Shown in pieces: positions 13,854 to 16,055 of a DNA stretch of 64,000 nucleotides (position 1 is the first letter of the stretch; each line of letters starts with the position of its first letter). The stretch covers positions 124,001 to 188,000 of the forward strand of contig NZ_CP006587.1 of the NCBI RefSeq assembly GCF_000737515.1, written 5' to 3'. The position numbers were made by a program, and so were the translations under genes. The notes beneath the pieces were generated by a model, which was given only the letters and a program-made list of their open reading frames with translations, did no database searches and was not told the DNA's origin. This DNA comes from Hymenobacter sp. APR13 (GTDB taxonomy: Bacteria; Bacteroidota; Bacteroidia; Cytophagales; Hymenobacteraceae).

Positions 13854-14006
13854 GAACGTCATGCAGAGGCGTAGCCGAAGCATCTCGCGTGCTGACGTTG
13901 TCCAATCGTCGAACGATAACCACTCCGTAGCCCAAGGTTTAAACCCTGGGCTAGTGAAGCAATGTCAGCACGCGAGATGCTTCGGCTGCGCCTCTGCATG
14001 ACGTTC
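13854..14006. repeat. Long inverted repeat, family B with nested palindrome (copy 4)
   Basis: 43-bp arms (13854-13896 and 13964-14006) with one mismatch, starting GAACGTCATGCAGAGGCG. The centre holds a second palindrome, agcccaaggttt/aaaccctgggct (13929-13952). It separates two convergent genes and could end both transcripts. Confidence 0.93.
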
Positions 14007-14028: not shown

Positions 14029-14787
14029 TTATTCCAGCAGCCGTGCTTGGAGCTGAGCCAGGCTTTCGGGGAGTTGCTGCATGTCGGTGAGCACGAAGTA
14101 GAGGTCCTGGAATTTGTCCTTCTCGAAGGGGGTGTCCAGCACGCCGTCGAGGGTGAAGGGCAGGCGGGTGGGCGCATCGCTGAGGCTGAACTTCACCTCG
14201 CCGTGCGACGACAACAGCCCGGCCCCGTAGATGCGCAGGCCGTCGGGCTGCTGAATCAGGCCAAACTCGGCCGTGAACCAGTACAGGCGCGTGAACTGCT
14301 CCAGCGTGCCGGGCCAGCGCTGCCCGTGGTGCACGGCGGCCGCGCCCAGTTTCTGCAGGAAATCAGCAAAGCCGGCATCCGTCAGCAGCGGCACGTGGCC
14401 GAATACGTCGTGGAACATGTCGGGCTCCTCGAGGTAGTCGAGCTGCTCGAGGGTGCGCAGCCAGGTGGTGGCGGGGAAATTGCGGTTGGCCAGCAGCTGG
14501 AAAAACACGGCGTCATCCACGATGCCGGGCACAACCACCAGCTCCCAGCCGGTCAGCTCCTGCAGGCGCGGGTTCACCTCCCGGAAATCGGGGATGGCGT
14601 CGCGGGTGAAGCCCACCCGCCGCACGCCTTCCAGAAATGCCTCGGCGGCGCGGCCGGGCAGCAAAGCCATCTGGCGGTCAAAGAGCAGCTGCCACACGTG
14701 CTGGTCGGCGGCGGTGTAATCGGCGTATACCTGGGTGAGCAGCGGCAGGGCAACGGGAGCAACGGGGGCGGCAGAAACAGACTGCAT
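14029..14787 (-). CDS. phhA: Aromatic amino acid hydroxylase (phenylalanine 4-monooxygenase-like)
   Basis: 252 residues, the size of single-domain bacterial phenylalanine hydroxylases. It would convert Phe to Tyr with tetrahydrobiopterin, O2 and non-heme iron. The iron ligands are all present: His126 and His131 in FHDVFGHVPLL and Glu174 in WFTAEFGL. Other family blocks are FPATTWLRTLEQLDYLEEPDMF and YGAGLLSSHGEV. A Tyr-rich leader ORF and intrinsic terminator lie directly upstream, suggesting control by Tyr supply, which fits a Tyr-making enzyme. A second paralogue lies upstream on the same strand. Specificity for Phe rather than Trp or Tyr is inferred. Confidence 0.88.
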   Translation of the reverse strand: MQSVSAAPVAPVALPLLTQVYADYTAADQHVWQLLFDRQMALLPGRAAEAFLEGVRRVGFTRDAIPDFREVNPRLQELTGWELVVVPGIVDDAVFFQLLANRNFPATTWLRTLEQLDYLEEPDMFHDVFGHVPLLTDAGFADFLQKLGAAAVHHGQRWPGTLEQFTRLYWFTAEFGLIQQPDGLRIYGAGLLSSHGEVKFSLSDAPTRLPFTLDGVLDTPFEKDKFQDLYFVLTDMQQLPESLAQLQARLLE

Positions 14788-14816: not shown

Positions 14817-14849
14817 AAGCCTGCCTCCGCAGGGAGCGGAGGCAGGCTT
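14817..14849 (-). terminator. Leader terminator (attenuator) of the phhA-like gene
   Basis: On the minus strand a perfect 14-bp stem, AAGCCTGCCTCCGC with its complement, has a 5-nt loop and is followed by T5. It ends 29 bases before the start codon at 14787, between leader ORF and gene. Part of its 5' arm and loop (14833-14841) is exactly complementary over 9 bases to a segment inside the leader ORF (14908-14916), which would form an antiterminator. Confidence 0.82.
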
Positions 14850-14881
14850 GAAAAGACGTTGGGGAGGATGATGTGCTAGTC

Positions 14882-14971
14882 TCAGGTCCTCGCGTACGCC
14901 GCGGCCGCTCCGCTCCGGAGGGGAACGTAATAGGTAGCAGCGTAATAATAGCGGGACGTGAACAGCAGCAT
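14882..14971 (-). CDS. Tyr-rich leader peptide of the phhA-like gene
   Basis: A 29-codon ORF with six Tyr codons: MLLFTSRYYYAATYYV, then five Ala/Gly-rich codons, a further Tyr at position 26, and TGA at 14882. Its ATG lies six bases after a perfect TAnnTTTG box (14978-14985), so the transcript would be leaderless or nearly so. Codons 18-22 contain the GGAGCGGAG segment complementary to the terminator arm. A ribosome stalled at Tyr8-10 would leave that segment free to form the antiterminator. The codon make-up and layout are seen directly; regulation by Tyr-tRNA is inference. Confidence 0.75.
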   Translation of the reverse strand: MLLFTSRYYYAATYYVPLRSGAAAAYART

Positions 14972-14977
14972 GTGCAG

Positions 14978-14985
14978 CAAATGTA
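14978..14985 (-). promoter_or_regulatory. -7 box of the phhA-like leader
   Basis: TACATTTG on the minus strand matches the TAnnTTTG consensus fully. No good -33 TTG at normal spacing. The leader ATG follows by six bases. Confidence 0.6.
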
Positions 14986-15015
14986 CGAGAGATTTTGAAT
15001 TAAGTAGATTTCACT

Positions 15016-15103
15016 CTGTCATTCTGAGCGGAGCGAAGGACCTTATCATGTCCAACGAGTCGTTCAGACGTGATAAGGTCCTTCGCTCCGCTCAGGATGA
15101 CAG
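15016..15103. repeat. Long inverted repeat, family A (copy 5)
   Basis: 33-bp arms (15016-15048 and 15071-15103) with one mismatch, ending GGACCTTATCA. It begins just past the stop of the upstream hydroxylase and may insulate it from the second leader and gene. Confidence 0.93.
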
Positions 15104-15108
15104 AAGGG

Positions 15109-15843
15109 CTACTCTACCGGCTGCAGCTCCCAGCCTGAGGACAGCAGCGCGGCCAACTCGGCTACGCTTTCGGTGAGCTGCTCCCAGCTGGTGAGCACGA
15201 AGTACTGATCCTGCAGGTGCGCTTCGCTGTAGGGGGTGTGCAGCACGGTGGCCAGGTCGAAGGGGAAACGGCGCGAAACGTCGCCGATGCAGTGGTGGAT
15301 TTCGCCCGACGACGAGAGCAGACCGGCCCCGTACATGCGCGTCTGGCCGTGCTCCTCCACTAGCCCGAACTGCACCGTGAAGCCGTAGAGCCGCTCGAGG
15401 CGGGCCAGGGCCACGGCATCGTCGAGATGCTGGGCGGCTACCTGGCCCAGGAAGTGCAGGAAGTCGGCGAAGGCCTGGTCCATGAGCAGCGGCACGTGGC
15501 CGAATACGCCGTGGAACAAGTCGGGTTCCTCAATGAAGTCGAACTGCTCCATGCTCCGGATCCAGACGGTGGCCGGGAACTTGCGCTGGGCCAGCAACCC
15601 GAAGAACTCGGCATCATTGAGCATGCCCTGCACCGGTTCCAGCTGCCAGCCAGTGGCTTTTTGCAGGCGCTGGCTTACTTCCTGAAAATCGGGAATGGCG
15701 TTGCGGTGGAAGCCCACGGCCTCCAGCCCCCGGCCAAACGCCGAGCAGGCACGCTTGTGCAGCAGGGCCGTCTGGCGGTCGAACAATACCTTCCAAACCA
15801 GCTGATCCTGCGTGGTATACCGGTCGTAGTGTTGCTGTATCAT
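15109..15843 (-). CDS. Aromatic amino acid hydroxylase paralogue with altered iron site
   Basis: 244 residues, clearly homologous to the neighbouring hydroxylase along its length (AIPDFQEVSQRLQKATGWQL, FPATVWIRSMEQFDFIEEPDLF, YGAGLLSSSGEI). The two His ligands are present (His111, His116 in FHGVFGHVPLL). The third ligand, Glu in nearly all members (EFGL), is Gln158 here: the codon is CAG in GFTVQFGL. The enzyme may therefore be weak, bind metal differently, or have another role. It has its own promoter and a leader region with a terminator. Tandem duplication followed by divergence is the simplest history. Confidence 0.85.
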   Translation of the reverse strand: MIQQHYDRYTTQDQLVWKVLFDRQTALLHKRACSAFGRGLEAVGFHRNAIPDFQEVSQRLQKATGWQLEPVQGMLNDAEFFGLLAQRKFPATVWIRSMEQFDFIEEPDLFHGVFGHVPLLMDQAFADFLHFLGQVAAQHLDDAVALARLERLYGFTVQFGLVEEHGQTRMYGAGLLSSSGEIHHCIGDVSRRFPFDLATVLHTPYSEAHLQDQYFVLTSWEQLTESVAELAALLSSGWELQPVE

Positions 15844-15859: not shown

Positions 15860-15893
15860 AAAAAAAGCCCGGCTCCTGGGGAGGAGTCGGGCT
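15860..15893 (-). terminator. Leader terminator of the second hydroxylase
   Basis: On the minus strand AGCCCGACTCCT pairs with AGGAGCCGGGCT (one A-C mismatch, CCCC loop), followed by T7; it ends about 16 bases before the ATG at 15843. The 5' arm GCCCGAC (15886-15892) is also perfectly complementary to GTCGGGC at 15955-15961 in the leader, a possible antiterminator. Confidence 0.75.
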
Positions 15894-15931
15894 CTTAAGT
15901 GGATTTCAGAGAAGGAGAAGCATGCTGTGTT

Positions 15932-16018
15932 CTACCTTTCGTACCCGCAAAAGCGCCCGACCTCGTCCTGGACTGGACGATTAATGGTCATAAAGCATTT
16001 CGCGGATAGGTTCAGCAT
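15932..16018 (-). CDS. Possible leader ORF of the second hydroxylase
   Basis: A 28-codon ORF whose ATG lies seven bases after a TATATTTG box, the same layout as the Tyr-rich leader next door, and likewise starting ATG CTG. It contains two Phe and one Tyr (ending GRFCGYER) but no run of one amino acid, so the control residue is unclear. A second mini-ORF (ATG, four Leu codons, TGA) at 15906-15923 lies between it and the terminator. Translation of either is unproven. Confidence 0.35.
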   Translation of the reverse strand: MLNLSAKCFMTINRPVQDEVGRFCGYER

Positions 16019-16025
16019 GATGATG

Positions 16026-16055
16026 CAAATATAGAAGACTTCCGGAATAAACAAG
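16026..16055 (-). promoter_or_regulatory. Promoter of the second hydroxylase leader
   Basis: Minus strand TATATTTG (16026-16033) matches the -7 consensus, with TTG (16052-16054) 18 bases upstream as the -33 box. The region from here to 16211 is AT-rich and shows no gene. Confidence 0.6.

Follow-up and report, generated by a model that had tools for sequence, protein, structure and literature searches.

A putative tyrosine-codon leader attenuator upstream of a phenylalanine hydroxylase gene in Hymenobacter

A 64,000-nucleotide stretch of Hymenobacter sp. APR13 DNA (contig NZ_CP006587.1, positions 124,001-188,000; hereafter the window) carries two phenylalanine hydroxylase genes on its minus strand. 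The downstream gene (copy 1; 14029-14787), which is the putative controlled gene, encodes a phenylalanine 4-monooxygenase of 252 amino acids, and its named relatives at 94-97% identity belong to Hymenobacter. The product matches PF00351 (E 7.8e-47) and scores 275.1 bits against the NCBIfam equivalog TIGR01267 (phenylalanine 4-monooxygenase), over the cut-off of 264.75. When aligned to the solved bacterial enzyme 4etl, it retains His, His and Glu within the motifs HDVFGH and WFTAEFG, at positions that we take to be those of the iron ligands. The second copy (15109-15843, minus strand), 54% identical to copy 1, lies upstream. Together with its orthologues, it has a Gly after the first His and a Gln at the position of the presumably iron-binding Glu (FTVQFG or FAVQFG at 23 of 25 loci, the other two not being read), whereas Glu is kept there in all 60 other hydroxylase genes read. 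The second copy is possibly an altered enzyme. It is preceded by a box-ORF-terminator leader of another kind (MLNLSAKCFMTINRPVQDEVGRFCGYER; 15866-16033, minus strand), in which neither a repeated codon nor an Rfam family at gathering score was found. In relatives, a segment resembling GGAGUCGGGCU is retained that can pair with the arm of the terminator, and similar layouts occur in clades C and D of the identity-based grouping used here. Long palindromic repeats, seen by eye, flank the copy 1 gene at 15015-15104 and 13859-14001 and perhaps represent a mobile palindromic element; the former gives Rfam microRNA matches below gathering score.

The leader of copy 1 consists of a promoter box, a short ORF and an intrinsic terminator, all on the minus strand. 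The box TACATTTG, of the Bacteroidetes -7 type (TAnnTTTG), occupies 14978-14985 and lies 6 nt 5' of the ATG of the leader ORF. This ORF of 29 codons (MLLFTSRYYYAATYYVPLRSGAAAAYART*; 14882-14971, ATG at 14971) contains six Tyr codons, namely codons 8-10 (14942-14950), codons 14-15 (14927-14932) and codon 26. Codons 14-15 adjoin, with a one-base overlap, a protector hairpin recognised in the sequence and in alignment A1 of 36 genus leaders; this hairpin is an addition to the preliminary description of the locus. Its 5' arm, segment 1 (CGUUCC; 14922-14927), resembles CGCUCC of segment 3. Segment 2 (GGAGCGGAG; 14908-14916) lies inside codons 19-22, which encode RSGA. Its first six bases can pair with segment 1 to form the protector, and all nine can pair with segment 3 (CUCCGCUCC; 14833-14841), a part of the terminator 5' arm and loop, to form a 9-bp antiterminator. 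The terminator hairpin (14817-14849) has a 14-bp stem, a 5-base loop and a stability of about -30 kcal/mol, and is followed by T5 at 14818-14814. The box, the ORF with its three and then two adjacent Tyr codons, and the terminator just before the gene had all been claimed in the preliminary description and are present at these positions. The nine-base "match" that it reported also stands in its coordinates and its perfection; the wording does not, because reversing and complementing GGAGCGGAG (14916-14908) gives exactly CTCCGCTCC (14841-14833), so that the relation is one of complementarity. The 198-nt leader folds with a z score of -5.53 (0 of 200 shuffles equally stable), and its leader:arm duplex is equalled by 0 of 200 leader shuffles.

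The Tyr-rich ORF is conserved with copy 1. In 120 genus genomes searched, 30 genes are 74-100% identical to copy 1 (this count includes the window's own gene), and all 30 have the Tyr-rich ORF and the terminator. In the group at 57-62% identity, the Tyr ORF precedes 6 of 10 fetched genes and is absent from L034, L039, L040 and L041, so that, of the 40 genus genes of this type that were inspected, 36 have the ORF and terminator. The common form of the peptide is MLLTSRYYAYAYYAP-RSGAATAC. A scored version of the search, in which a short ORF with at least four Tyr in eight residues had to lie within the 420 nt 5' of the gene, finds 30/30 in the close group and 5/10 in the 57-62% group (L038 has three Tyr). 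These counts refer to the genes fetched among the matches listed, i.e., the 30 close loci and 60 further genus regions (10 of the 57-62% group, 30 of clade B, 15 of clade C and 5 of clade D). The fetched paralogues score 1/30, 0/15 and 0/5 in clades B, C and D, respectively. Thus, the leader is specific to the copy 1 paralogue (36/40 against 1/50 fetched paralogues). Over all gene groups, dinucleotide shuffles reach the score in 0 to 0.6% of cases, and the reverse strand gives 0. The preliminary description had proposed aligning orthologous upstream regions and looking for the Tyr codons; they recur in the close group, at 57-62% identity and in other genera.

Elsewhere in the family, where upstream DNA was covered for part of the hydroxylase genes (20 regions and 7 loci), the score is reached in genus g5 by 5/7 (the remaining two have YYY), in g6 by 3/3 and in g3 by 15/17; at the order level outside the family it is reached by 3/29. 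Among named loci, 41 of 80 have the Tyr ORF (20 of the 23 that carry the name Hymenobacter, 21 of the remaining 57), a count that is not independent of the 30/30 because many of the Hymenobacter genomes in the named set had already entered the earlier count. The genera beyond Hymenobacter are Solirubrum, Pontibacter, Nafulsella, Fulvivirga, Marivirga, Cesiribacter, Roseivirga and other Cytophagales. Of the 39 named loci that fail, five score three Tyr, and three of these (L174, L187 and L230) have ATG-started Tyr ORFs. Both searches for the Tyr ORF cover a stretch of set length ahead of the match start, so that leaders of operon genes are missed. At eight leader-less hydroxylase loci, the gene upstream encodes prephenate dehydrogenase (2), DAHP synthase (3), an HPPD-like protein in Larkinella (1), a flavin reductase (1) or DNA polymerase III delta (1). 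In the other genera the peptides vary except for their Tyr runs (YYYYY, YYYYYYY, YSYYSYYYRYY), which fits selection acting on the runs; RSGAA, conserved in the close group, is not kept there. In Roseivirga (L177, L186, L194, L212, L217 and L228), and also at L151 and L193, Tyr is mixed with His (e.g., YHYHYYY). At 26 loci outside the close group that were picked for having the Tyr ORF, 23 of them not named Hymenobacter, a terminator always lies between ORF and gene, with a stability of -10 kcal/mol or lower in 26/26 against 1/260 shuffles; the antiterminator pairing is above 95% of shuffles in 13 of these 26 leaders.

Alignment A1 shows three helices, the terminator, the protector and the antiterminator; the shuffle controls against which they were compared ignore the relatedness of the leaders. 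The intrinsic terminator is present in 36/36 leaders. Its cells are paired in 98.0% of cases, and two-sided changes occur in 5 of 14 pairs (3/500 shuffles reach 5) and in 20 cells (0/500). The protector, CGYUCC:GGAGCG, lies directly 3' of the last Tyr pair and has 96.3% of its cells paired (0/500 shuffles), with two-sided changes in 3 of 6 pairs (11/500 shuffles reach 3) and in nine cells (0/500); its pair types are not unusual (126/500). The antiterminator has 91.6% of its cells paired (0/500), and its covariation is not above chance among the 36 leaders (56/500 shuffles reach its score), because the helix is too invariant to covary beyond the shuffles. Hence, the covarying terminator/antiterminator pairs that the preliminary description had proposed to look for are found in the terminator and not in the antiterminator. 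The alternative pairing itself is retained in the orthologues, as a leader:arm duplex covers segment 2 in all 36 leaders; it is above 95% of shuffles in 32 and not stronger than these in the other four.

Ribosome position is predicted by the folding model to decide between the two structures. At equilibrium, the full-length leader favours the terminator in 36/36 cases when the last Tyr codon or the stop codon is occupied by the ribosome, and in 35/36 when the first Tyr codon is occupied, the exception being L027. This speaks against a purely thermodynamic switch, and because the terminator wins at equilibrium, the switch must be co-transcriptional. In the co-transcriptional model, the transcript was cut before arm 4 and the ribosome was taken to mask 12 nt, counted from the A site; the readout was the share of the 5' terminator arm plus loop that pairs with the leader. 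The median share is 0.66 for a ribosome on the first Tyr codon, 0.69 at the last Tyr codon, 0.25 at codon 20, 0.07 at the stop codon and 0.23 without a ribosome; the numbers of leaders at 0.4 or above are 36, 36, 14, 0 and 15 of 36, respectively. Being on at the last Tyr codon and off at the stop codon, as judged by cut-offs of 0.4 and 0.35 chosen after the model result had been seen, is a property of 36/36 leaders and of 164/540 shuffled leaders. In the window, the share is 0.68 on the Tyr codons and 0.01 at the stop codon. Followed codon by codon, it lies at 0.58-0.68 over codons 1-15, drops after codon 15, is below 0.4 from codon 19 and at most 0.04 from codon 25; without a ribosome it is 0.01. 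Because 15 of the 36 leaders, the window's not among them, antiterminate in the model without a ribosome, the protector does not suffice by itself in every leader. A stall at any of codons 1-7 would antiterminate in the window's leader as well, so that Tyr specificity would come from the codons and not from the geometry.

These features suggest the following mechanism. Transcription would start just 3' of TACATTTG. When Tyr is plentiful, the ribosome would pass the Tyr codons and reach the stop codon, leaving segment 2 covered or held in the protector (1:2); the terminator (3:4) would form, and transcription would end before the gene. When Tyr is short, the ribosome would stall at the Tyr codons and cover segment 1, so that segment 2 could pair with segment 3 while arm 4 is still to be transcribed. 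With the terminator blocked, the hydroxylase gene would be transcribed and Phe converted to Tyr. Hence the leader very probably works by ribosome-mediated attenuation of transcription, with charged Tyr-tRNA as the signal and the Tyr-making phenylalanine hydroxylase as the target, a reading that draws on sequence comparison and modelling. The chain proposed earlier, from low Tyr-tRNA through stalling and antitermination to enzyme expression, gains support from the conserved Tyr ORF and pairing, the covarying terminator and the modelled switch. As far as sequence can tell, the leader has the features that define attenuators such as those of trp, phe and his, in whose leaders the control codons also stand in runs.

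Other explanations fit parts of these data. The leader could act through translational control, or its product could be a TnaC-like arrest peptide that binds free Tyr, so that a shortage of charged tRNA would not be what is sensed. The location of segment 2 within the codons for RSGAA, conserved in the close group, would suit such a peptide, and Bacteroidetes are not known to have strong ribosome-binding sites, which we count in the same direction. This explanation nevertheless seems very unlikely, because a terminator with a T-run was found in all of the 36 genus and 26 other leaders tested, because the other genera keep the Tyr runs but not RSGAA, and because the Tyr codons stand in runs with no single fixed arrest residue.

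Alternatively, the terminator may be constitutive, serving a small RNA or ending upstream transcription, next to an ORF that is Tyr-rich by chance, and Tyr would then regulate nothing. The equilibrium model, in which the terminator prevails in almost every state, agrees with this; yet a chance ORF would hardly be found at 30/30 close orthologues when at most 0.6% of shuffles have one, both the protector and the terminator covary, and Tyr runs recur in other genera within otherwise different peptides. We rate this account slightly lower still. The least probable explanation, to which we attach next to no weight, is control of the gene by a known riboswitch or T-box, with the ORF being incidental. 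A leader that is structured and ends in a terminator would agree with this, but no Rfam family reaches the gathering score in the window or at six related loci; at E values up to 1, the sole match inside the leader, far below threshold, is to the terminator stem.

The leaders of the pheA-tyrA operon provide a comparison of codons for the attenuator reading. A covariance model of alignment A1, run on the 120 genus genomes, recovers the 36 training sites and four weak ones, of which two lie before prephenate dehydratase genes and two are L245 and L246. In the genome of the window (L242), the gene order is pheA, aminotransferase and tyrA (prephenate dehydrogenase), and two leaders, MLQPTARFYFSYCFYYATA and MNTLRYFFTYAYFFYWKKPAPCCLS, precede pheA. 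Within 2983-3300 of L242, outside the window, both leaders have a terminator downstream of them when read by eye. Phe/Tyr-rich leaders precede pheA in all 26 regions examined (20 + 6; L242, L243, L244 and L247-L269), against 3/520 shuffles, and two such leaders stand in series in 22 of the 26, against 0/520. Pooled codons amount to 185 Tyr and 19 Phe in the hydroxylase leaders and to 190 Tyr and 207 Phe in the pheA leaders. The operon that makes both products thus reads both codons, and the gene that makes Tyr reads Tyr, which points to codon-specific sensing. We regard this contrast, drawn between sequences, as the strongest indirect evidence for such sensing.

The distribution of the alternative Tyr route suggests what the hydroxylase is for. 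A prephenate dehydrogenase (PF02153) match is lacking in 7 of the 120 genus genomes, six of which are near complete (G001, G003, G022, G060, G087 and G117). The putatively Tyr-controlled hydroxylase is present in 6/6 of these near-complete genomes against 24/108 other near-complete ones (Fisher p 2e-4, a value that, like the other Fisher p-values given here, overstates independence because the genomes are related). G006 has a partial PF02153 match (28.9 bits, cut-off 26.5) and a hydroxylase from another clade; when it is scored as lacking the dehydrogenase, the proportion becomes 6/7 and p 0.0013. Outside the genus, 82 near-complete genomes were compared. A strong hydroxylase match is found in 29 of 31 genomes without a full dehydrogenase, the remaining two (G120 and G125) having neither enzyme, and in 23 of 51 with one, the other 28 having an absent or weak hydroxylase match (p 5e-6). 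In this comparison, six genomes with dehydrogenase matches only below cut-off were scored as lacking the enzyme and 12 without a match were assigned by elimination; it is weaker than the genus-level one.

A pheA gene with a Phe-only leader had been expected in the dehydrogenase-less Hymenobacter genomes; instead, no prephenate dehydratase match was found in the six near-complete ones, nor in G006. Chorismate synthase is present in all 150 family genomes searched. These organisms are perhaps Phe-requiring and obtain Tyr by hydroxylation; we infer from the two missing matches that they take Phe from outside and convert it to Tyr. The dehydratase is also unmatched in five dehydrogenase-bearing genomes (G021, G043, G057, G067 and G114), so that its absence alone does not prove a Phe requirement. 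The homogentisate dioxygenase (HgmA) domain is found in 2 of the 120 genus genomes, both times marginally. A biosynthetic hydroxylase is already known in Bacteroidetes from fitness data on Echinicola, as given in the excerpt available of PMC7311316. The paralogue marked by the Tyr leader is likely to be the biosynthetic one.

The promoter region of the leader implies an unusual message. The motif TAnnTTTG is the Bacteroidetes -7 consensus in the portion of PMC7366714 available. It occurs exactly in 27 of the 36 leaders and as TAnnTTTR in 32, ending 4-7 nt before the ATG; no recognisable box is found in the other four (L011, L015, L016 and L031). With the start site placed at the usual distance after the box, the message would have almost no 5' untranslated region. 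Such a near-leaderless start would be unusual, because only about 3.7% of 5' UTRs in Bacteroides thetaiotaomicron are shorter than 10 nt (PMC7366714, same portion). With the ATG 4-7 nt after the box, the kinetic switch would need leaderless ribosome loading.

Several known systems resemble this leader in part; the cited papers were available as excerpts, to which the comparisons apply. In E. coli, leader ORFs with codons for the product likewise precede a regulated terminator at pheA (pheL) and trp (trpL) (PMC11802643), but their codons are for Phe or Trp and their targets are genes of de novo pathways, whereas here they are Tyr and a hydroxylase. In Corynebacterium glutamicum, aroR upstream of aroF also contains a Tyr codon (Phe-Tyr-Phe) and precedes a gene of the aromatic pathway; however, it is reported to be enhanced under Phe limitation and unaffected by Tyr availability (PMC11802643). 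The uORFC-13-1 motif of Acholeplasma is similarly an upstream ORF beside a terminator before an aromatic gene, aroF, but has Phe codons, another gene and another phylum (PMC8632094). The attenuators of tyrA operons, including pheA > hisHb > aroA-aroQ > tyrA of Bacteroides thetaiotaomicron, belong to the same phylum and pathway but are database predictions for another operon, with no hydroxylase (PMC1173090). The biosynthetic phenylalanine hydroxylases of Echinicola vietnamensis, Dyella and Legionella represent the same Tyr route and are supported by fitness data, but, unlike in the attenuator proposed here, no regulation is described in the excerpt (PMC7311316). According to the accessible part of a 2010 survey, leader peptides were known in Proteobacteria and Actinobacteria, and Firmicutes were added (PMC2965389). 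In the parts of open-licence PMC full texts retrieved, neither a leader with Tyr as its sole control codon nor attenuation of a phenylalanine hydroxylase gene could be recognised.

The order of hairpins in E. coli pheL and trpL is the same as in the present leader. Unlike the near-leaderless layout seen here, pheL and trpL have an ordinary 5' untranslated region with a ribosome-binding site.

The wider interest of the leader comes from what it would sense and control, from how broadly it occurs in Cytophagales and from the near-leaderless layout. It would be a Tyr-specific leader-peptide attenuator that acts on a hydroxylase and not on a de novo gene, in a phylum for which few such systems were found described. 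The Tyr leader is also a genomic mark of one hydroxylase paralogue that the neighbouring paralogues lack. Furthermore, regulation appears to be tied to gene loss, in that Hymenobacter genomes without a prephenate dehydrogenase match keep the Tyr-controlled hydroxylase. These elements may belong to a Cytophagales-wide layer of aromatic control, in which near-leaderless leaders read Tyr only at the hydroxylase gene and Phe plus Tyr, often through two attenuators in series, at pheA-tyrA, and in which the pheA-tyrA branch could be dispensed with because of the Tyr-controlled hydroxylase; we hold the case for and against this broader view to be evenly balanced. If it is true, several lineages would now obtain Tyr solely from Phe that they take up, as animals do.
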